Part shown: in pieces, positions 2,295-25,651 of the stretch
How the letters are laid out: each line of letters begins with the position of its first letter
Numbering within the stretch: the first letter of the stretch is position 1
Origin: Paraburkholderia ginsengiterrae
Lineage (GTDB): Bacteria; Pseudomonadota; Gammaproteobacteria; Burkholderiales; Burkholderiaceae
Reading direction: 5' to 3'
NCBI RefSeq assembly: GCF_001645125.1
Contig: NZ_LXKA01000220.1
Coordinates: forward strand, 1 to 64,000
Length of the DNA stretch: 64,000 nt
Program-made: the position numbers and the translations under genes
The notes under the pieces: generated by a model
Databases searched by the model: none
What the model saw: the letters and a program-made list of their open reading frames with translations, nothing else
What the model was told of the DNA's origin: nothing

Positions 2295-2351
2295 GTTTTC
2301 TCCTGTCGTGTGTATCGAACGATGTAAAACTTGGGGTCCATTTCCCGTCAA

Positions 2352-3281
2352 TCAGCCCGCCGAGAAAAACGGCTTGCCCAGCGATGCGGGTGCATTCAGA
2401 CGAATCGTGTTCGGATTGCGGGAGATCAGCACCAGCACGACCACCGTCGCGATGTACGGCAGCATCGCGAGGAACTGGGTCGGCACCGGCACGCCGATCG
2501 CCTGCGCATAGAACTGCAGGCCGGTCACGGCGCCGAACAGCAGCGCGCCGATCAGGAGGCGCCCCGGGCGCCACGTCGCGAACACGACCAGCGCGAGCGC
2601 GATCCAGCCGCGGCCTGAGGTCAGGTTTTCCTGCCAAAGGTGCAGATTGACGATCGAGTAGTAGCCGCCCGCGAGTCCGGCCATGCCGCCGCCGAAGGCC
2701 ACCGCGCCGTAGCGCACGCCGACCACCGGAAAGCCCACCGAGTGCGCCACTTGCGGCGATTCGCCGACCGAGCGCAGCACGAGACCGGCACGCGTGCGGT
2801 ACAGAAACCAGCCGATCACGGCGAACATCAGGAACGCGAGGTAGTCCAGCGGCGTCAGGGTGAACAGCGCGGGTCCGAGCACCGGAATCTTCGAGAGGCC
2901 GGGAATGGTCCATGTGTCGATGGTCGCGCGCACCGCCGCCGATGTGTACGGTTTGCCGATGTACGCCGAGAGGCCGATGCCGAAGATCGTCAGCGACAGA
3001 CCGGTGGCGACCTGGTTGGCAAGCATGGTGAGCGTGAGAAACGCAAACAGCAGCGACATCACGAGACCGGCGCCGATCGCGGCCACGACACCGAGCCACG
3101 GGTTGCCGGTGATCGCGGTGACGGCGTAGCCGGTTACCGCGCCCATCAGCATCATGCCTTCGACGCCGAGGTTGAGGACGCCCGATTTTTCGGCGACGAG
3201 TTCGCCCGCGCCCGCGAACATCAGCGGAATCGCGGCGGTGATGGCGCTCGAGGTGAGCGAGCTGGCTTGTTGAATATCCAT
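2352..3281 (-). CDS. ABC transporter permease (BPD_transp_2 family, NupQ/YufQ-like)
   Basis: This 309-residue multi-pass inner-membrane protein of the branched-chain/nucleoside permease family starts MDIQQASSLTSSAITAAIPLMFAGAGEL. It carries the family EKSGVLNLGVEGMMLMGA segment near residue 40, which contacts the importer ATPase. The frame is open upstream of 3281, but that extension overlaps the previous gene's end and looks non-coding. It is paired with the permease at 3331-4437 to form a heterodimeric channel. Function as a purine/nucleoside importer subunit rests on the family and on operon context. Confidence 0.92.
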   Translation of the reverse strand: MDIQQASSLTSSAITAAIPLMFAGAGELVAEKSGVLNLGVEGMMLMGAVTGYAVTAITGNPWLGVVAAIGAGLVMSLLFAFLTLTMLANQVATGLSLTIFGIGLSAYIGKPYTSAAVRATIDTWTIPGLSKIPVLGPALFTLTPLDYLAFLMFAVIGWFLYRTRAGLVLRSVGESPQVAHSVGFPVVGVRYGAVAFGGGMAGLAGGYYSIVNLHLWQENLTSGRGWIALALVVFATWRPGRLLIGALLFGAVTGLQFYAQAIGVPVPTQFLAMLPYIATVVVLVLISRNPNTIRLNAPASLGKPFFSAG

Positions 3282-3339: not shown

Positions 3340-4437
3340 TTGCGCGGCGACCGGCCGGCGGCGCACACGGTAGTTCACGAACAGGTCGGCACCCAGCAGG
3401 CAGAACAGCAACAGCCCCTGGAACACACCGGACAGCGCCTGCGGCAATTGCATCGAGGTCTGCACGGCTTCGCCGCCGAGATACAGCAGCGCCATCAGCA
3501 GGCTCGCGAGCACAATGCCGAGCGGATGCAGCCGCCCCACGAACACGACGATGATCGCGGTGAAGCCGTAGCCGGGCGACCACGTCGCCTGCAACTGGCC
3601 GATCGGGCCGGCGATCTCGCCCATGCCCGCGAGTCCCGCGAGGCCGCCGCTGATCAGGAGCGACGTCCAGATGGTTTTCTTGTCGGAGAAACCGGCGTAG
3701 CGCGCGGCGAGCGGCGCGAGACCGCCGACGTTCATCCGGAACCCAGCGAAGCTCTTGCGCATGAAGACCCACACGAGCGGAATCGCCACCAGCGTGACGA
3801 ACACCGACGCGTTCAGACGCGTACCGCGCAGCCATTTCCAGTGCCAGTCGCCGGAGAAGGTCGGGTACAGCGCGTCGCCGGTGAACATCTCAGAGAGCGG
3901 GAAGTTCATGCCCTGCGGATCGCGCCACGGACCGCTCACCAGATAAATCAGCAGCTGCGTGGCCACATACGTGAGCATCAGGCTGACGAGAATCTCGTTG
4001 GTGTTGAAACGGCTCTTGAGCAACGCGGGAATCGCGGCCCAAGCCATGCCGCCCAGCACGCCGGCGGTCATCATGGCCGGCAGGATCCACCAGCCGGTGG
4101 CCTGATCGAAATAGATCGCGACGCCGCTCGCGGCAATGCCGCCGAGCAGCATCTGCCCTTCAGCGCCGATGTTCCACACATTGGCGCGATAGCCGATCGC
4201 GAGGCCAAGCCCGATCAGGCACAACGGAGACGCCTTCAGCAGCAGCTCGGACCACCCGTTCACGCTGGACAGCGGCTCGATGAAGAACGCGTGCATGGCC
4301 TGCAGCGGATCGCGGCCCACCAGGCTGAAGATCAGAAAACCGATCGCGAGCGTGAGCAACGCGGCGATCAGCGGCACGGCGAGCTGCATGGTGCGCGAAG
4401 GCGTCGTGCGGGCTTCGAGTCGATACGGAAGAATCAT
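3331..4437 (-). CDS. ABC transporter permease (NupP/YufP-like)
   Basis: This 368-residue inner-membrane permease begins MILPYRLEARTTPSRTMQLAVPLIAALL, with a short cytoplasmic N-terminus followed by a transmembrane helix. The family motif GYRANVWNIGAEGQMLLGG lies near residues 85-105, and many hydrophobic segments follow. The ATG at 4437 is preferred over an upstream in-frame ATG because homologues begin at this hydrophilic stretch. It is second in the importer operon, 96 bp after the ATPase. It should form the translocation pore with the next permease. Confidence 0.92.
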   Translation of the reverse strand: MILPYRLEARTTPSRTMQLAVPLIAALLTLAIGFLIFSLVGRDPLQAMHAFFIEPLSSVNGWSELLLKASPLCLIGLGLAIGYRANVWNIGAEGQMLLGGIAASGVAIYFDQATGWWILPAMMTAGVLGGMAWAAIPALLKSRFNTNEILVSLMLTYVATQLLIYLVSGPWRDPQGMNFPLSEMFTGDALYPTFSGDWHWKWLRGTRLNASVFVTLVAIPLVWVFMRKSFAGFRMNVGGLAPLAARYAGFSDKKTIWTSLLISGGLAGLAGMGEIAGPIGQLQATWSPGYGFTAIIVVFVGRLHPLGIVLASLLMALLYLGGEAVQTSMQLPQALSGVFQGLLLFCLLGADLFVNYRVRRRPVAAQAH

Positions 4438-4533: not shown

Positions 4534-6135
4534 TCAGGCATGCGCCGGCTGTTCCGCCGAGGGCGCCGAGCCCTCGCGTCCGCCGAACAGGCCCGCCATC
4601 CAGCGGCCGATTTCCTCCGCGTTGGTCGCCCCCGTGGCACGCACCGGCGAGAGTCTGCCGCCGGCGAGCACCGCGATGCGATCGCAGATATCGAACAACT
4701 CCTCCAGCTCCTCCGAAATCACCAGAATCGCCACGCCACGCGCAGACAGGTCGAGCAGCTGCTGGCGAATGAACGCCGAGGCGCCGACGTCGACACCCCA
4801 AGTTGGCTGCGCAACCACCAGCACCTTGGGCCCCTGCAGAATCTCGCGGCCCATGATGTATTTCTGCAGATTGCCGCCCGAGAGACTTTGCGCCAATGCC
4901 TCGCCGCCACCGCAACGCACGTCGAAAGCTTCGATACAGCGTTTCGCGAACGCGCGCATCGCACCCGCCTTGATCCAGCCGGAATTCACCATTTGCTGCC
5001 GGTGCGCGGTGAGCAGCGCGTTTTCCGACAGCGTCATGGCCGGCACCGCGCCGCGCCCAAGGCGCTCTTCCGGCACGAAGCCGAAGCCGAGTGCGCGCCG
5101 CCCGCCAGCGCCGAGGCGCCCCGCCGCCGTGCCGCAAATCGTCACCGCGTCGGCGCGCACGCCGCGCTTTTCACCTGAGAGCGCCGACAGCAGCTCCGCC
5201 TGTCCGTTGCCCGAGACGCCCGCGATGCCGAAAATCTCGCCGGCATGCACGCCGAATGACACGTTATCGAGCGACGTGCCGAACGGGTCGTCGCTCTCCA
5301 CCGACAGCTGTTTGACCTCGAGCAGCACGGCGCCCGGATTGTGTTCGCGCCGCGTGTAGTCCGGCAGCGAATGGCCGACCATCAATTGGGCGAGCGAGGC
5401 GTGCGTCTCGCCCTTCGGTTTCACGTGGCCTGTCACGCGGCCGCCGCGCATGACCGTCGCGGTGTCGCACAGCTCCTGAATTTCGTCGAGCTTGTGGCTG
5501 ATGTAGAGAATGCTGCAGCCTTCGGCCGCGAGGCGCCGCAGCGTTTCGAACAGCTTGCGCACCGCCTGCGGCGTGAGCACCGAGGTCGGCTCGTCCATAA
5601 TCAGCAGGCGCGGGTTCTGCAGCAGGCAACGCACGATCTCGACCCGCTGCCGCTCGCCCACCGTCAGGCTGTGCACGTGGCGCTGCGGGTCGATGTCGAG
5701 GCCGTAATCCGCCGAGACTTCGCGGATGCGTTTGGAGAGCGTCTTCAGATCGAACGGCTCGTCGAGTGCCAGCGCGATGTTTTCGCCGACCGTGAGCGTC
5801 TCGAACAGCGAAAAATGCTGGAACACCATGCCGATGCCGAGCTTGCGCGCCGCTGCCGGACTGGCGATCTCGACCGTCTGGCCTTCCCAGCGAATCTCGC
5901 CGGCGTCGGGCCGCACCGCGCCGTAGATGATTTTCATCAGCGTGCTTTTGCCGGCGCCGTTTTCGCCGAGCACCGCATGGATTTCGCCCGGCGCGACGAT
6001 CAACGTGACGTCGTCGTTGGCTCGCACGGCCGGATACTGTTTGGTGATGCCCTGAAGCACCAGCCGGGGCGCCGCCTGTTCCGGCCTGTCTGCCGGCTGC
6101 GCGGCGGCGCCGTCGCTATAAGAAGAGTGGCTCAT
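4534..6135 (-). CDS. ABC transporter ATP-binding protein, double-domain (NupO/YufO-like)
   Basis: This 533-residue cytoplasmic ATPase has two nucleotide-binding domains fused in tandem, as in sugar and nucleoside importers. The first domain has Walker A GENGAGKST near residue 59, signature LTVGERQRVE and Walker B LLIMDEPTSVL. The second has a degenerate Walker A (GVSGNGQAE) but a good LSGGNLQK signature near residue 420. Degeneracy of the second P-loop is usual in this family. It is the first gene of the operon and is transcribed divergently from the LysR gene at 6399, which is the natural candidate regulator. Confidence 0.93.
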   Translation of the reverse strand: MSHSSYSDGAAAQPADRPEQAAPRLVLQGITKQYPAVRANDDVTLIVAPGEIHAVLGENGAGKSTLMKIIYGAVRPDAGEIRWEGQTVEIASPAAARKLGIGMVFQHFSLFETLTVGENIALALDEPFDLKTLSKRIREVSADYGLDIDPQRHVHSLTVGERQRVEIVRCLLQNPRLLIMDEPTSVLTPQAVRKLFETLRRLAAEGCSILYISHKLDEIQELCDTATVMRGGRVTGHVKPKGETHASLAQLMVGHSLPDYTRREHNPGAVLLEVKQLSVESDDPFGTSLDNVSFGVHAGEIFGIAGVSGNGQAELLSALSGEKRGVRADAVTICGTAAGRLGAGGRRALGFGFVPEERLGRGAVPAMTLSENALLTAHRQQMVNSGWIKAGAMRAFAKRCIEAFDVRCGGGEALAQSLSGGNLQKYIMGREILQGPKVLVVAQPTWGVDVGASAFIRQQLLDLSARGVAILVISEELEELFDICDRIAVLAGGRLSPVRATGATNAEEIGRWMAGLFGGREGSAPSAEQPAHA

Positions 6136-23309: not shown

Positions 23310-23796
23310 CTTGCGCCTGACCGGGTAGAGCCGGCATGGGGTGACATCTCCATTCGTCGTTCAGGTTGAGCCGTGCGGCCTGAGTACTGTACATTCATAC
23401 AGCACCAGCAGCAATAGTCAGGCATGTAACGCCGAACGGGAAAGGGTCACGATTCGTGGTGACGCGGGTCGGTCGCTTTCGTCAAACAAGCGGATTTTCC
23501 GCAAAAAATCGATTCGGAATACAAATTAATTTTGATTTGATTTTTCGCCCCGAAAAAATAAGCCCGGAGCAATGCGGCTCGCCCGAAGTTCATAGAAGTA
23601 ACGGCAGCGACACAGCGATGTTGTACAGTTTCCCTAAGGGGACTGAGCGGTATAACATCTGTGGACGTTGAGCGGCCTTGCGTTCATCTGCGCCCTCTCC
23701 TTGCAGTCAGACCCGGTCTGCTCAGAAGACAGCGGCCGGCGCGACAGACAATCCGCTGTTGTTGGAACCCGTCATAGCTCATCACCATTCGATCCG
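23310..23796. other. Divergent regulatory region between thpR and the encapsulin operon
   Basis: No gene is seen in these 487 bp. Besides the LexA box there is a markedly AT-rich segment (23505-23570) that breaks with the surrounding composition and is a good place for the encapsulin operon promoter. Confidence 0.55.
23387..23402. promoter_or_regulatory. LexA (SOS) box
   Basis: CTGTACATTCATACAG is an exact CTGT-N8-ACAG site, with TA before and CA after, close to the classical consensus. It is 78 bp from the thpR start codon and about 395 bp from the Dyp peroxidase start on the other side. thpR is the likelier target. Confidence 0.75.
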
Positions 23797-24855
23797 ATGC
23801 CAAAAGACACTCCAGAATCGCAGTCCGTTTGTAATACCGTCACGCGTAGCGCGATTTTCATCGTAGCGACCCTGGTGGACGGCGAGAACAACGCCGACAC
23901 GGTGCGCGCATGGTGCGCCGATATAGCCGCCCTCGTACGTTCGGTCGGCAAGCGCGTCCCCTCCGGCAATCTGTCGTGCGTGTGCGGCTTCGGCTCCAAG
24001 GCCTGGGATACGCTGTTCGGCGCGCCGCGTCCGGCGGGCCTGCACCCGTTCCGCGAAGTCGGCGAGGGAGAACGCCGCGCCGTGGGGACGCCGGGCGATA
24101 TCCTGCTGCATATCCGCGCGGACCAGATGGATCTCTGCTTCGACCTCGCCACGCAACTGGTAGGACGGCTCGGCGAAGCGATCGCCGTAGTGGATGAAGT
24201 GCACGGCTTTCGCTACTTCGATATGCGCAGCATGGTGGGTTTCGTCGACGGGACCGAGAATCCGGAAGGCCGCGAGGCCGCCGATTTCACCCTGATCGGC
24301 GACGAAGATCCGGAGTTCACCGGCGGCAGCTATGTCCTCGTGCAGAAGTATCTGCACGACATGGCCGGCTGGAATGCGCTTTCAGTCGAGACCCAGGAGC
24401 GCATTATCGGCCGTACCAAACTCTCCGACATCGAGCTGGATGAAGCGGTCAAACCGTCGTCATCGCACAGTTCGCTGACCACGCTCGTGGAAAACGGCGA
24501 GGAAGTGAAAATCCTCCGCGACAACAAGCCGTTTGGCCGCCCCGGCATGGGCGAGTTCGGCACTTACTTTATCGGCTACGCGCGCTCGCCTCGTCCGATC
24601 GAACAAATGCTGGAAAACATGTTCGTCGGGCGGCCGCCGGGCAATTACGACCGGCTGCTCGACTACAGCCGCGCGGTCACGGGCGGCCTCTTTTTCCTCC
24701 CGTCGGCCACCTTGCTCGAGGCGCTCGCGGAACGCGCCCCCCAGAGCAACGCGGCCTGCGCCGGCCAGCAGCCCGTTGCGCCCTCGCCTGCCGAACCACG
24801 CCACGACGGTTCACTGAATATCGGCTCTCTCAAAGGAACTTCGCAATATGAATAA
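23797..24855 (+). CDS. Dyp-type haem peroxidase, encapsulin cargo
   Basis: This 352-residue peroxidase is of the P class (YfeX/DypB type). Catalytic residues are all visible: distal Asp D151 in GFVDGTENP, proximal haem His H224 in PSSSHSSL, and distal Arg R241 in LRDNKPFG. After the catalytic domain there is an Ala/Pro-rich linker (about residues 311-336). A C-terminal targeting peptide follows (DGSLNIGSLKG, residues 337-347), the type that docks cargo inside encapsulin shells. It overlaps the shell gene by 8 bp. The ATG at 23797 is chosen by family N-terminus; the ribosome-binding site is weak and the frame is open upstream. Confidence 0.93.
   Translation: MPKDTPESQSVCNTVTRSAIFIVATLVDGENNADTVRAWCADIAALVRSVGKRVPSGNLSCVCGFGSKAWDTLFGAPRPAGLHPFREVGEGERRAVGTPGDILLHIRADQMDLCFDLATQLVGRLGEAIAVVDEVHGFRYFDMRSMVGFVDGTENPEGREAADFTLIGDEDPEFTGGSYVLVQKYLHDMAGWNALSVETQERIIGRTKLSDIELDEAVKPSSSHSSLTTLVENGEEVKILRDNKPFGRPGMGEFGTYFIGYARSPRPIEQMLENMFVGRPPGNYDRLLDYSRAVTGGLFFLPSATLLEALAERAPQSNAACAGQQPVAPSPAEPRHDGSLNIGSLKGTSQYE
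24832..24837 (+). promoter_or_regulatory. Ribosome-binding site of the shell gene inside the cargo-peptide codons
   Basis: AAAGGA is both the Lys346-Gly347 codons of the peroxidase targeting peptide and, 10 bases before ATG 24848, the only plausible Shine-Dalgarno site for the shell gene. The two genes therefore appear translationally coupled. Confidence 0.65.
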
Positions 24856-25651
24856 TCTGCATCGCGAGCTTGCTCCCATCTCCAGCGCCGCCTGGTCGCA
24901 GATCGAAGAGGAAGTCGCGCGCACCTTCAAGCGCTGTGTCGCGGGCCGTCGCGTGGTCGACGTCAAGGGCCCTGGCGGCACGGAACTGTCTGGCGTTGGC
25001 ACGGGTCATCAGATCGCCGTCACCGCGCCGCAAGCCGGTGTCGTGGCCAAACTGTCCGAGGTGAAGGCGCTGGTGCAACTGACCGTGCCATTCGAACTGC
25101 AACGCGAGGCAATCGACAGTGTCGCGCGCGGCGCGAAAGACGCCGACTGGCAGCCCGCGAAAGATGCCGCGAAGGAACTCGCCTATGTGGAAGATCGCGC
25201 GATTTTCGACGGCTATCAGGCGGCGGGCATCGGCGGGATTCGCGAAGGTTCGTCGAATCCGCCCCTCGCGTTGCCCGCCAACGTCAGCGACTATCCGGCC
25301 GCAATCAGCGGCGCGCTCGAACAGTTGCGGCTCGCCGGCGTCGACGGCCCCTACTCCGTGCTGCTCGGCGCCGACGCGTTCACCGCCCTCGGCGAAGCGA
25401 GCCATCAGGGGTATCCGGTCATCGAGCACATCAAGCGGATCGTGAACGGCGACATCGTCTGGGCGCCCGCGCTCACCGGCGGCTGTGTGCTGTCCACGCG
25501 CGGCGGCGACTTCGAACTGCACCTGGGCGATGACCTGTCGATCGGCTACACGAGCCATACCGACACAGTCGTGCGACTCTATCTGCGCGAGACGCTGACA
25601 TTCCTGATGCTGACGAGCGAGGCATCGGTTTCGGTGACGGAAGCGGAATAG
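24848..25651 (+). CDS. Family 1 encapsulin shell protein (linocin M18 family)
   Basis: This 267-residue protein has the HK97-like fold of encapsulins, which self-assemble into icosahedral protein nanocompartments. The N-terminus (MNNLHRELAPISSAAWSQIEEEVARTFKRCVAGRRVVDVKGPGG) and the middle GYPVIEHIKRIV and GGDFELHLGDDLSIGYTSH segments are typical of the Linocin_M18 family. It follows the Dyp peroxidase with an 8-bp overlap, the classical cargo-then-shell order. Expected role: enclosing the peroxidase, probably for oxidative-stress defence; the physiological substrate is unknown. Confidence 0.95.
   Translation: MNNLHRELAPISSAAWSQIEEEVARTFKRCVAGRRVVDVKGPGGTELSGVGTGHQIAVTAPQAGVVAKLSEVKALVQLTVPFELQREAIDSVARGAKDADWQPAKDAAKELAYVEDRAIFDGYQAAGIGGIREGSSNPPLALPANVSDYPAAISGALEQLRLAGVDGPYSVLLGADAFTALGEASHQGYPVIEHIKRIVNGDIVWAPALTGGCVLSTRGGDFELHLGDDLSIGYTSHTDTVVRLYLRETLTFLMLTSEASVSVTEAE

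Follow-up and report, generated by a model that had tools for sequence, protein, structure and literature searches.

A DyP-encapsulin operon of Paraburkholderia ginsengiterrae and a putative Shine-Dalgarno sequence in the codons of its targeting peptide

DyP peroxidases are the commonest cargo of family 1 encapsulins, with 1,505 systems, 519 of them in Proteobacteria, according to the accessible part of a published survey (PMC8346489). Systems of this kind have been described from Mycobacterium, Klebsiella and other enterobacteria, Brevibacterium and Rhodococcus. For Klebsiella, the available text of the structural report (PMC10960027) names R34, D38, T217, D229 and I230 of the shell as contacts of the targeting peptide, and the peptide bound in that structure is SGSLNIGSLK, in which no Gly follows the Lys. 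That cargo and shell are tightly packed and their translation likely coupled has already been published (accessible portions of PMC7925596 and PMC8229669), as has a start/stop overlap for M. tuberculosis (accessible portion of PMC11676171).

The window, a stretch of 64,000 nucleotides from Paraburkholderia ginsengiterrae, contains the two genes of these systems in their usual order, with the same haem residues, a C-terminal GSLxIGSLK and a full-length shell match. It differs from the enterobacterial operon, as presented in the accessible text of PMC10960027, in having neither formate dehydrogenase nor RpoH-like neighbours.

The DyP-shell gene pair and its targeting peptide

The cargo gene, encoding a DyP-type haem peroxidase of 352 aa, occupies positions 23797-24855 of the plus strand, and the gene of the family 1 encapsulin shell protein (267 aa) follows on the same strand at 24848-25651; the open reading frames coincide exactly with the coordinates given in a preliminary description of this DNA. 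The peroxidase matched Dyp_perox_N and Dyp_perox_C of Pfam (PF04261/PF20628; 3.9e-31 and 2.9e-56) as well as TIGR01413 of NCBIfam, with 7bok, 8u4z and 9e5e as best solved relatives. The catalytic haem residues had been placed at D151, H224 and R241, and it was found that D151 (within GFVDG), H224 and R241 align with the same residues of 7bok. The GxxDG aspartate, the proximal His and the distal Arg expected of an encapsulated DyP peroxidase are hence all present.

The next gene had been called a family 1 encapsulin shell, with a fit to the Linocin_M18 family proposed as a check. This fit was run and gave 3.3e-93 over residues 1-251 of 267 (Pfam), and the equivalog encap_f1 (NF041155, NCBIfam) was matched with 329.9 bits at a cut-off of 100. 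Solved encapsulin shells, among them 9i8d, 7phm and 8u50, match the window shell over its full length. Encapsulins and phage capsids have the HK97 fold in common (accessible part of PMC8346489), which would allow the shell gene to be read as the remnant of a phage capsid. Against the equivalog-level match, the full-length matches to solved encapsulins, the adjoining DyP with its targeting peptide and the count of 0 phage genes among the eight proteins scanned (DyP, shell and six neighbours), we regard the probability of such an origin as practically negligible.

The cargo gene lies directly 5' of the shell gene, as expected for family 1, and the peroxidase ends in DGSLNIGSLKGTSQYE. The claimed C-terminal DGSLNIGSLKG was recovered at 24805-24837 (plus strand), followed by TSQYE. 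A degenerate DNA pattern for SLx[I/V]GSLK had a single match in the whole genome, at 24811-24834, and revealed no second cargo; the reversed control pattern also gave one match, so that this count is near noise. The peptide core was present in 78 of the 80 DyP loci examined (the window and 79 named relatives), the other two being L049, where the peroxidase stops early, and L066, which reads TLNIGSLK.

On the shell side, phmmer aligned residues 1-265 with residues 1-265 of the Klebsiella shell 8u50, and the pocket numbering was taken as equal. With this numbering, R34, D38, T217 and D229 are identical to the Klebsiella shell, and residue 230 is Leu as compared with I230. The reading of the locus in the preliminary description, as a family 1 encapsulin operon loaded with DyP, is thus supported at the level of sequence by gene families, residues and peptide. 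Judged by its sequence, the operon is another member of a well-known encapsulin class, since DyP systems make up the largest published class of family 1.

The whole genome contains one shell gene. A shell match was detected in 86 of 197 related genomes, 82 of these, by row count, being of the window's genus. Over the 80 best of 174 named relatives, shell identity ranged from 61 to 91%, and the 28 closest of these are labelled Paraburkholderia, Caballeronia or Burkholderia. DyP adjoins the shell in 79 of the 80; the sole unpaired locus, L061, carries a second shell present in a Neisseriaceae genome. The eight-base overlap ATGAATAA at 24848-24855 (plus strand), as given by the ORF coordinates, combines the shell start with the cargo stop, and an overlap of the same length occurs in 64 of the 80 best named loci. 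In L049 (Paraburkholderia sp. BL25I1N1), near 3953-4070, the peroxidase frame stops after 38 residues and the adjoining shell is full-length, reflecting either gene decay or an assembly error.

Flanking genes, promoter-like element and LexA-type box

Left of the operon and divergent from it lie genes for a thpR-like RNA 2',3'-cyclic phosphodiesterase, a DnaJC28-like protein, tadA and an LD-carboxypeptidase; on the right, genes for a glycosyltransferase and a TetR regulator are convergent with it. The thpR-like protein scored above the Pfam cut-off and reached 51.8 in NCBIfam, which is below the cut-off of 65.7. Neighbours were compared over a maximum of 5 kb to either side (less on a few short contigs), at E ≤ 1e-15 and over more than half of the query. 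None of eight flanking genes was found near the shell in the 80 named relatives (best of 174), and a ninth, acyl-CoA ligase-like, gave weak matches of 25-28% in 6 of the 80, in line with the earlier remark that the operon stands alone. A hint to its role was sought in the neighbourhoods of the 80 named loci and none was found. The Paraburkholderia, Caballeronia and Burkholderia loci L032-L057 are alike in shell (82-91% identity) and have the same eight-base overlap in 22 of 26 cases; unlike in the window, its flanking genes are absent from all of them, except for a 25% match in L056. As the flanking genes are not common to the relatives, the operon seems from these comparisons to be a portable cassette, moving as a unit.

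A promoter-like element of its own, GTTTCCcTAA-N10-CGGTATAACATC at 23628-23659 (plus strand), sets the window operon apart from the described family 1 DyP encapsulins. The element is conserved 5' of DyP: besides the window, each of the 17 nearest named relatives (L032-L048) has it with small changes, which makes 18 of 80 rows. Its distance from the peroxidase gene varies from 105 to 260 bases, and the surrounding sequence is unrelated. Further copies were not found in the whole genome at up to three mismatches, and no regulon was found by this search. The element at 23628-23659 was not among the sites returned by a sigma-70 consensus scan, and the terminator scan returned one weak site on the opposite strand, fewer than shuffles yield.

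The preliminary description had also set the operon beside an SOS-type site. Such a site is present, as a perfect LexA-type box, CTGT-N8-ACAG, at 23387-23402, and its position 395 bases 5' of the DyP start would suit an SOS-regulated compartment, in which LexA bound there would keep the DyP-encapsulin operon repressed until its induction by DNA damage. Taken alone, the box is weak evidence: one is found in the window as against 0.37 expected by chance, 31 of 100 shuffles have at least one, and genome-wide there are 59 sites per strand versus 47 for the reversed control pattern. Its conservation 5' of thpR-like genes is what gives it credibility. In the 30 best of 74 thpR matches (from 72 of 115 genomes), inspection of 400 bases upstream revealed the box in 29 of 30 loci of the genus, or 28 of 29 without the window's own. 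It reads CTGTATGnATGTACAG in 27 of the 30 and lies 79-316 bases upstream.

The same box precedes DyP in 2 of 110 loci within up to 600 bases (about 450 in short loci), namely in the window itself and in L100, and is accordingly not a conserved part of the operon's promoter region. Among the 29 other thpR genomes, a shell gene is present but distant from thpR in 23, and no shell match was obtained in 6. In L119, where thpR is preceded by a codirectional gene that ends before the box, the box can serve thpR only. The operon, moreover, has its own conserved element closer to DyP. We therefore reject SOS control of the DyP-shell operon as highly improbable: the site noted earlier stands, its link to the operon does not. 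Most likely, to judge from these loci, the box belongs to thpR, and its location by the peroxidase is an accident of cassette position. It further suggests that thpR, and perhaps the tadA gene set behind it, may be under SOS control; the word thpR was not found in the literature matches listed on this subject. That the SOS site is an unlikely regulator of the operon is a correction that matters more than one more genome of the Paraburkholderia type.

A putative Shine-Dalgarno sequence in the targeting-peptide codons

The codons of the window's peptide end in CTC AAA GGA, and AAAGGA at 24832-24837 (plus strand), 10 nt before the shell ATG, is the putative Shine-Dalgarno sequence of the shell gene; these six bases double as the Lys-Gly codons of the targeting peptide. 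Among the window and the named loci, GGA encodes the Gly after Lys in 73 of the 75 that have Gly there; when the bodies of 108 DyP genes are pooled, GGA accounts for 5.9% of Gly codons. For the window alone the signal is weak, its pairing being equalled by 8.7% of synonymous draws, and singly 32 of 132 loci reach p ≤ 0.05 in the synonymous test. In the Klebsiella plasmid copy, the predicted site lies on Lys-Glu-Val codons instead of Lys-Gly; a reading of that site as AAGGAG in Lys-Lys-Glu was rejected, the predicted site being AGAGGTT.

The last 16 peroxidase codons (24805-24852) contain both the putative Shine-Dalgarno sequence and the ATG of the shell. Their deletion, proposed in the preliminary description as a test of loading, is flawed in the native operon because it would remove these shell signals together with the peptide.

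What may be regarded as a natural test of the Shine-Dalgarno sequence in the peptide end is added by L061 (Neisseriaceae bacterium JH1-16, 4969-5008). Here no cargo gene stands beside the shell, and the DNA of the peptide end that bears the Shine-Dalgarno sequence is kept as a leader: 31 of the 32 bases before the shell ATG are those of L060, AAAGGA included. The cargo was apparently lost and the site retained.

For a wider survey, shells were sampled from the class, where 20 of 369 genomes were positive, and from two phyla, that to which a Streptomyces locus belongs (27 of 296) and that of an acidobacterial locus (12 of 199). To these came 13 plasmid records, hand-picked for breadth from 40 listed of 63. 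Of 178 shell loci entered, nine were without a tblastn shell hit (L149, L151, L155, L158-L161, L189, L192) and three without a start codon (L205, L206, L209); L162, a second copy in the L152 genome with the same upstream sequence, and L208, the other half of L204, were dropped. The motif rule recognised a peptide in 148 of the remaining 164 loci and not in 16; among the plasmid records it did so in 11 of 13, L215 and L216 being without. For L175, the start codon was shifted manually by 15 bases to an in-frame ATG also used by L177. The resulting 159 loci with a recognised peptide beside the shell (79 named, 31 from the genus, 12 from the class, 26 from the phyla and 11 from plasmids) were clustered by cargo at 80% identity into 59 clusters with one representative each, which also removed unnamed copies of named loci. 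Left uncounted were further purine-rich sites in the peptide end, seen by eye in L153, L154, L173, L199 and L216, a peptide-like end with a weak site in L178 and L186, and a site without a recognised peptide over it in L187, L188, L190, L191, L201-L203 and L207.

Overlap was scored when at least one base of the best Shine-Dalgarno duplex fell on the peptide Lys/Arg or the next codon. This applied to 52 of the 59 clusters, as well as to 28 of 34 at 70% and 89 of 97 at 90% identity. Under a stricter rule of at least three paired bases on those codons, 45 of the 59 clusters remained and 14 had fewer than three. The clusters are not fully independent, consisting mostly of DyPs related by descent, and their sampling is uneven. 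Before clustering there were nine exceptions among the 159 loci, of which one, L051, keeps the Gly and has its Shine-Dalgarno sequence elsewhere.

The Gly after Lys is encoded by GGA in 30 of 36 clusters (83%), compared with 14% in gene bodies, and in 122 of 130 loci of the wider set. The other Gly codons of the same peptides are without this bias, with GGA in 14 of 59 (24%) at the IGS glycine (p = 1e-8 against 30 of 36) and in 11% at the Gly before SL. Summed over 53 clusters, the pairing energy was -390.2 as against -298.6 (sd 15.0) on synonymous resampling, and 0 of 300 draws reached the observed value. Gly is the next residue in 36 of the 52 touching clusters and in none of the remaining 7 (Fisher p = 7e-4); the stricter rule gives 36 of 45 versus 0 of 14. 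Part of this association of Gly with the position of the Shine-Dalgarno sequence is circular, because a GGN codon contributes pairing of its own to the duplex. The non-circular evidence is the codon choice (GGA in 30 of 36) together with the synonymous null. In some of the 16 non-Gly clusters, the Shine-Dalgarno sequence lies in another frame, as with Lys-Arg-Ser encoded by AAA AGG AGC.

In tightly overlapping gene pairs, it is normal for the upstream gene to contain a Shine-Dalgarno sequence. Shell binding or a codon bias of the region might thus be what preserves the Gly behind SLK and its GGA codon, with the Shine-Dalgarno overlap as a trivial by-product of close packing, which would occur in overlapping genes regardless. 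The common descent of most clusters, the case of L051 and the partial circularity of the Gly association speak for such an explanation. It does not account well for the absence of bias at the other Gly codons, for a synonymous null that falls short even with residues fixed, or for the different residues after the core (K-R-S, R-E-G, R-K-G) that go with other Shine-Dalgarno frames; the Klebsiella peptide bound without a Gly after Lys (accessible text of PMC10960027) also argues against it. We consider this by-product explanation unlikely.

We rather lean, with some reserve, towards a dual use of the peptide end in family 1 operons generally, where it would be a translated Shine-Dalgarno sequence. 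The residues after the GSLxIGSL core (K-G, K-R-S, R-E-G, R-K-G, K-E-E) would then be set mainly by ribosome binding and not by shell binding, and a mutation ruining the tag end would also cut the shell supply. In the passages of open-access papers that were searched, no mention of a shell ribosome site lying in the targeting peptide was found. If dual use holds in general, cargo and shell would be tied together in evolution, and the consensus of the targeting peptide would mix a binding signal with a translation signal. This would bear on the design of encapsulation tags and on the reading of deletion experiments in native operons, where editing the targeting peptide also touches the putative ribosome-binding site of the shell.

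Proposed working of the operon and its occurrence on plasmids

Gene identities, catalytic residues, peptide, pocket residues, overlap and the codon bias across relatives are established by sequence, and from them we infer assembly, loading, coupling in vivo, promoter activity and a peroxide-related role. The locus is very probably a self-contained two-gene cassette for a DyP-loaded family 1 encapsulin, with the shell translated from a Shine-Dalgarno sequence in the tag codons. A single transcript would start, probably, from the conserved element at 23628-23659, with the cargo read first. The shell would be translated from AAAGGA within the targeting-peptide codons across the eight-base start/stop overlap, and the combination of an internal Shine-Dalgarno sequence with this overlap makes a coupling between shell synthesis and completion of the cargo tag probable.

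The C-terminal GSLNIGSLK of DyP is expected to dock in the inner-wall pocket of the shell, and DyP would become enclosed while the shell subunits assemble. If the particle is like its solved relatives, it would comprise 60 shell subunits and DyP hexamers. The enclosed haem enzyme would reduce H2O2 and oxidise an organic co-substrate. By analogy, the likeliest role is protection from stress, a role carried over from work on M. tuberculosis and enterobacteria and not from this genome (accessible part of PMC8346489, among other sources).

On plasmids of Sphingobium and Methylobacterium (L211, L217), the same DyP-encapsulin proteins were found with uvrA upstream. As these plasmids are typed as conjugative, some DyP-encapsulin cassettes probably move on plasmids. 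On a Roseateles-labelled plasmid (L219), a gene for a sigma-70 family factor was observed 3' of the shell at 2320-3177; it resembles the rpoH behind the Klebsiella operon in L210.
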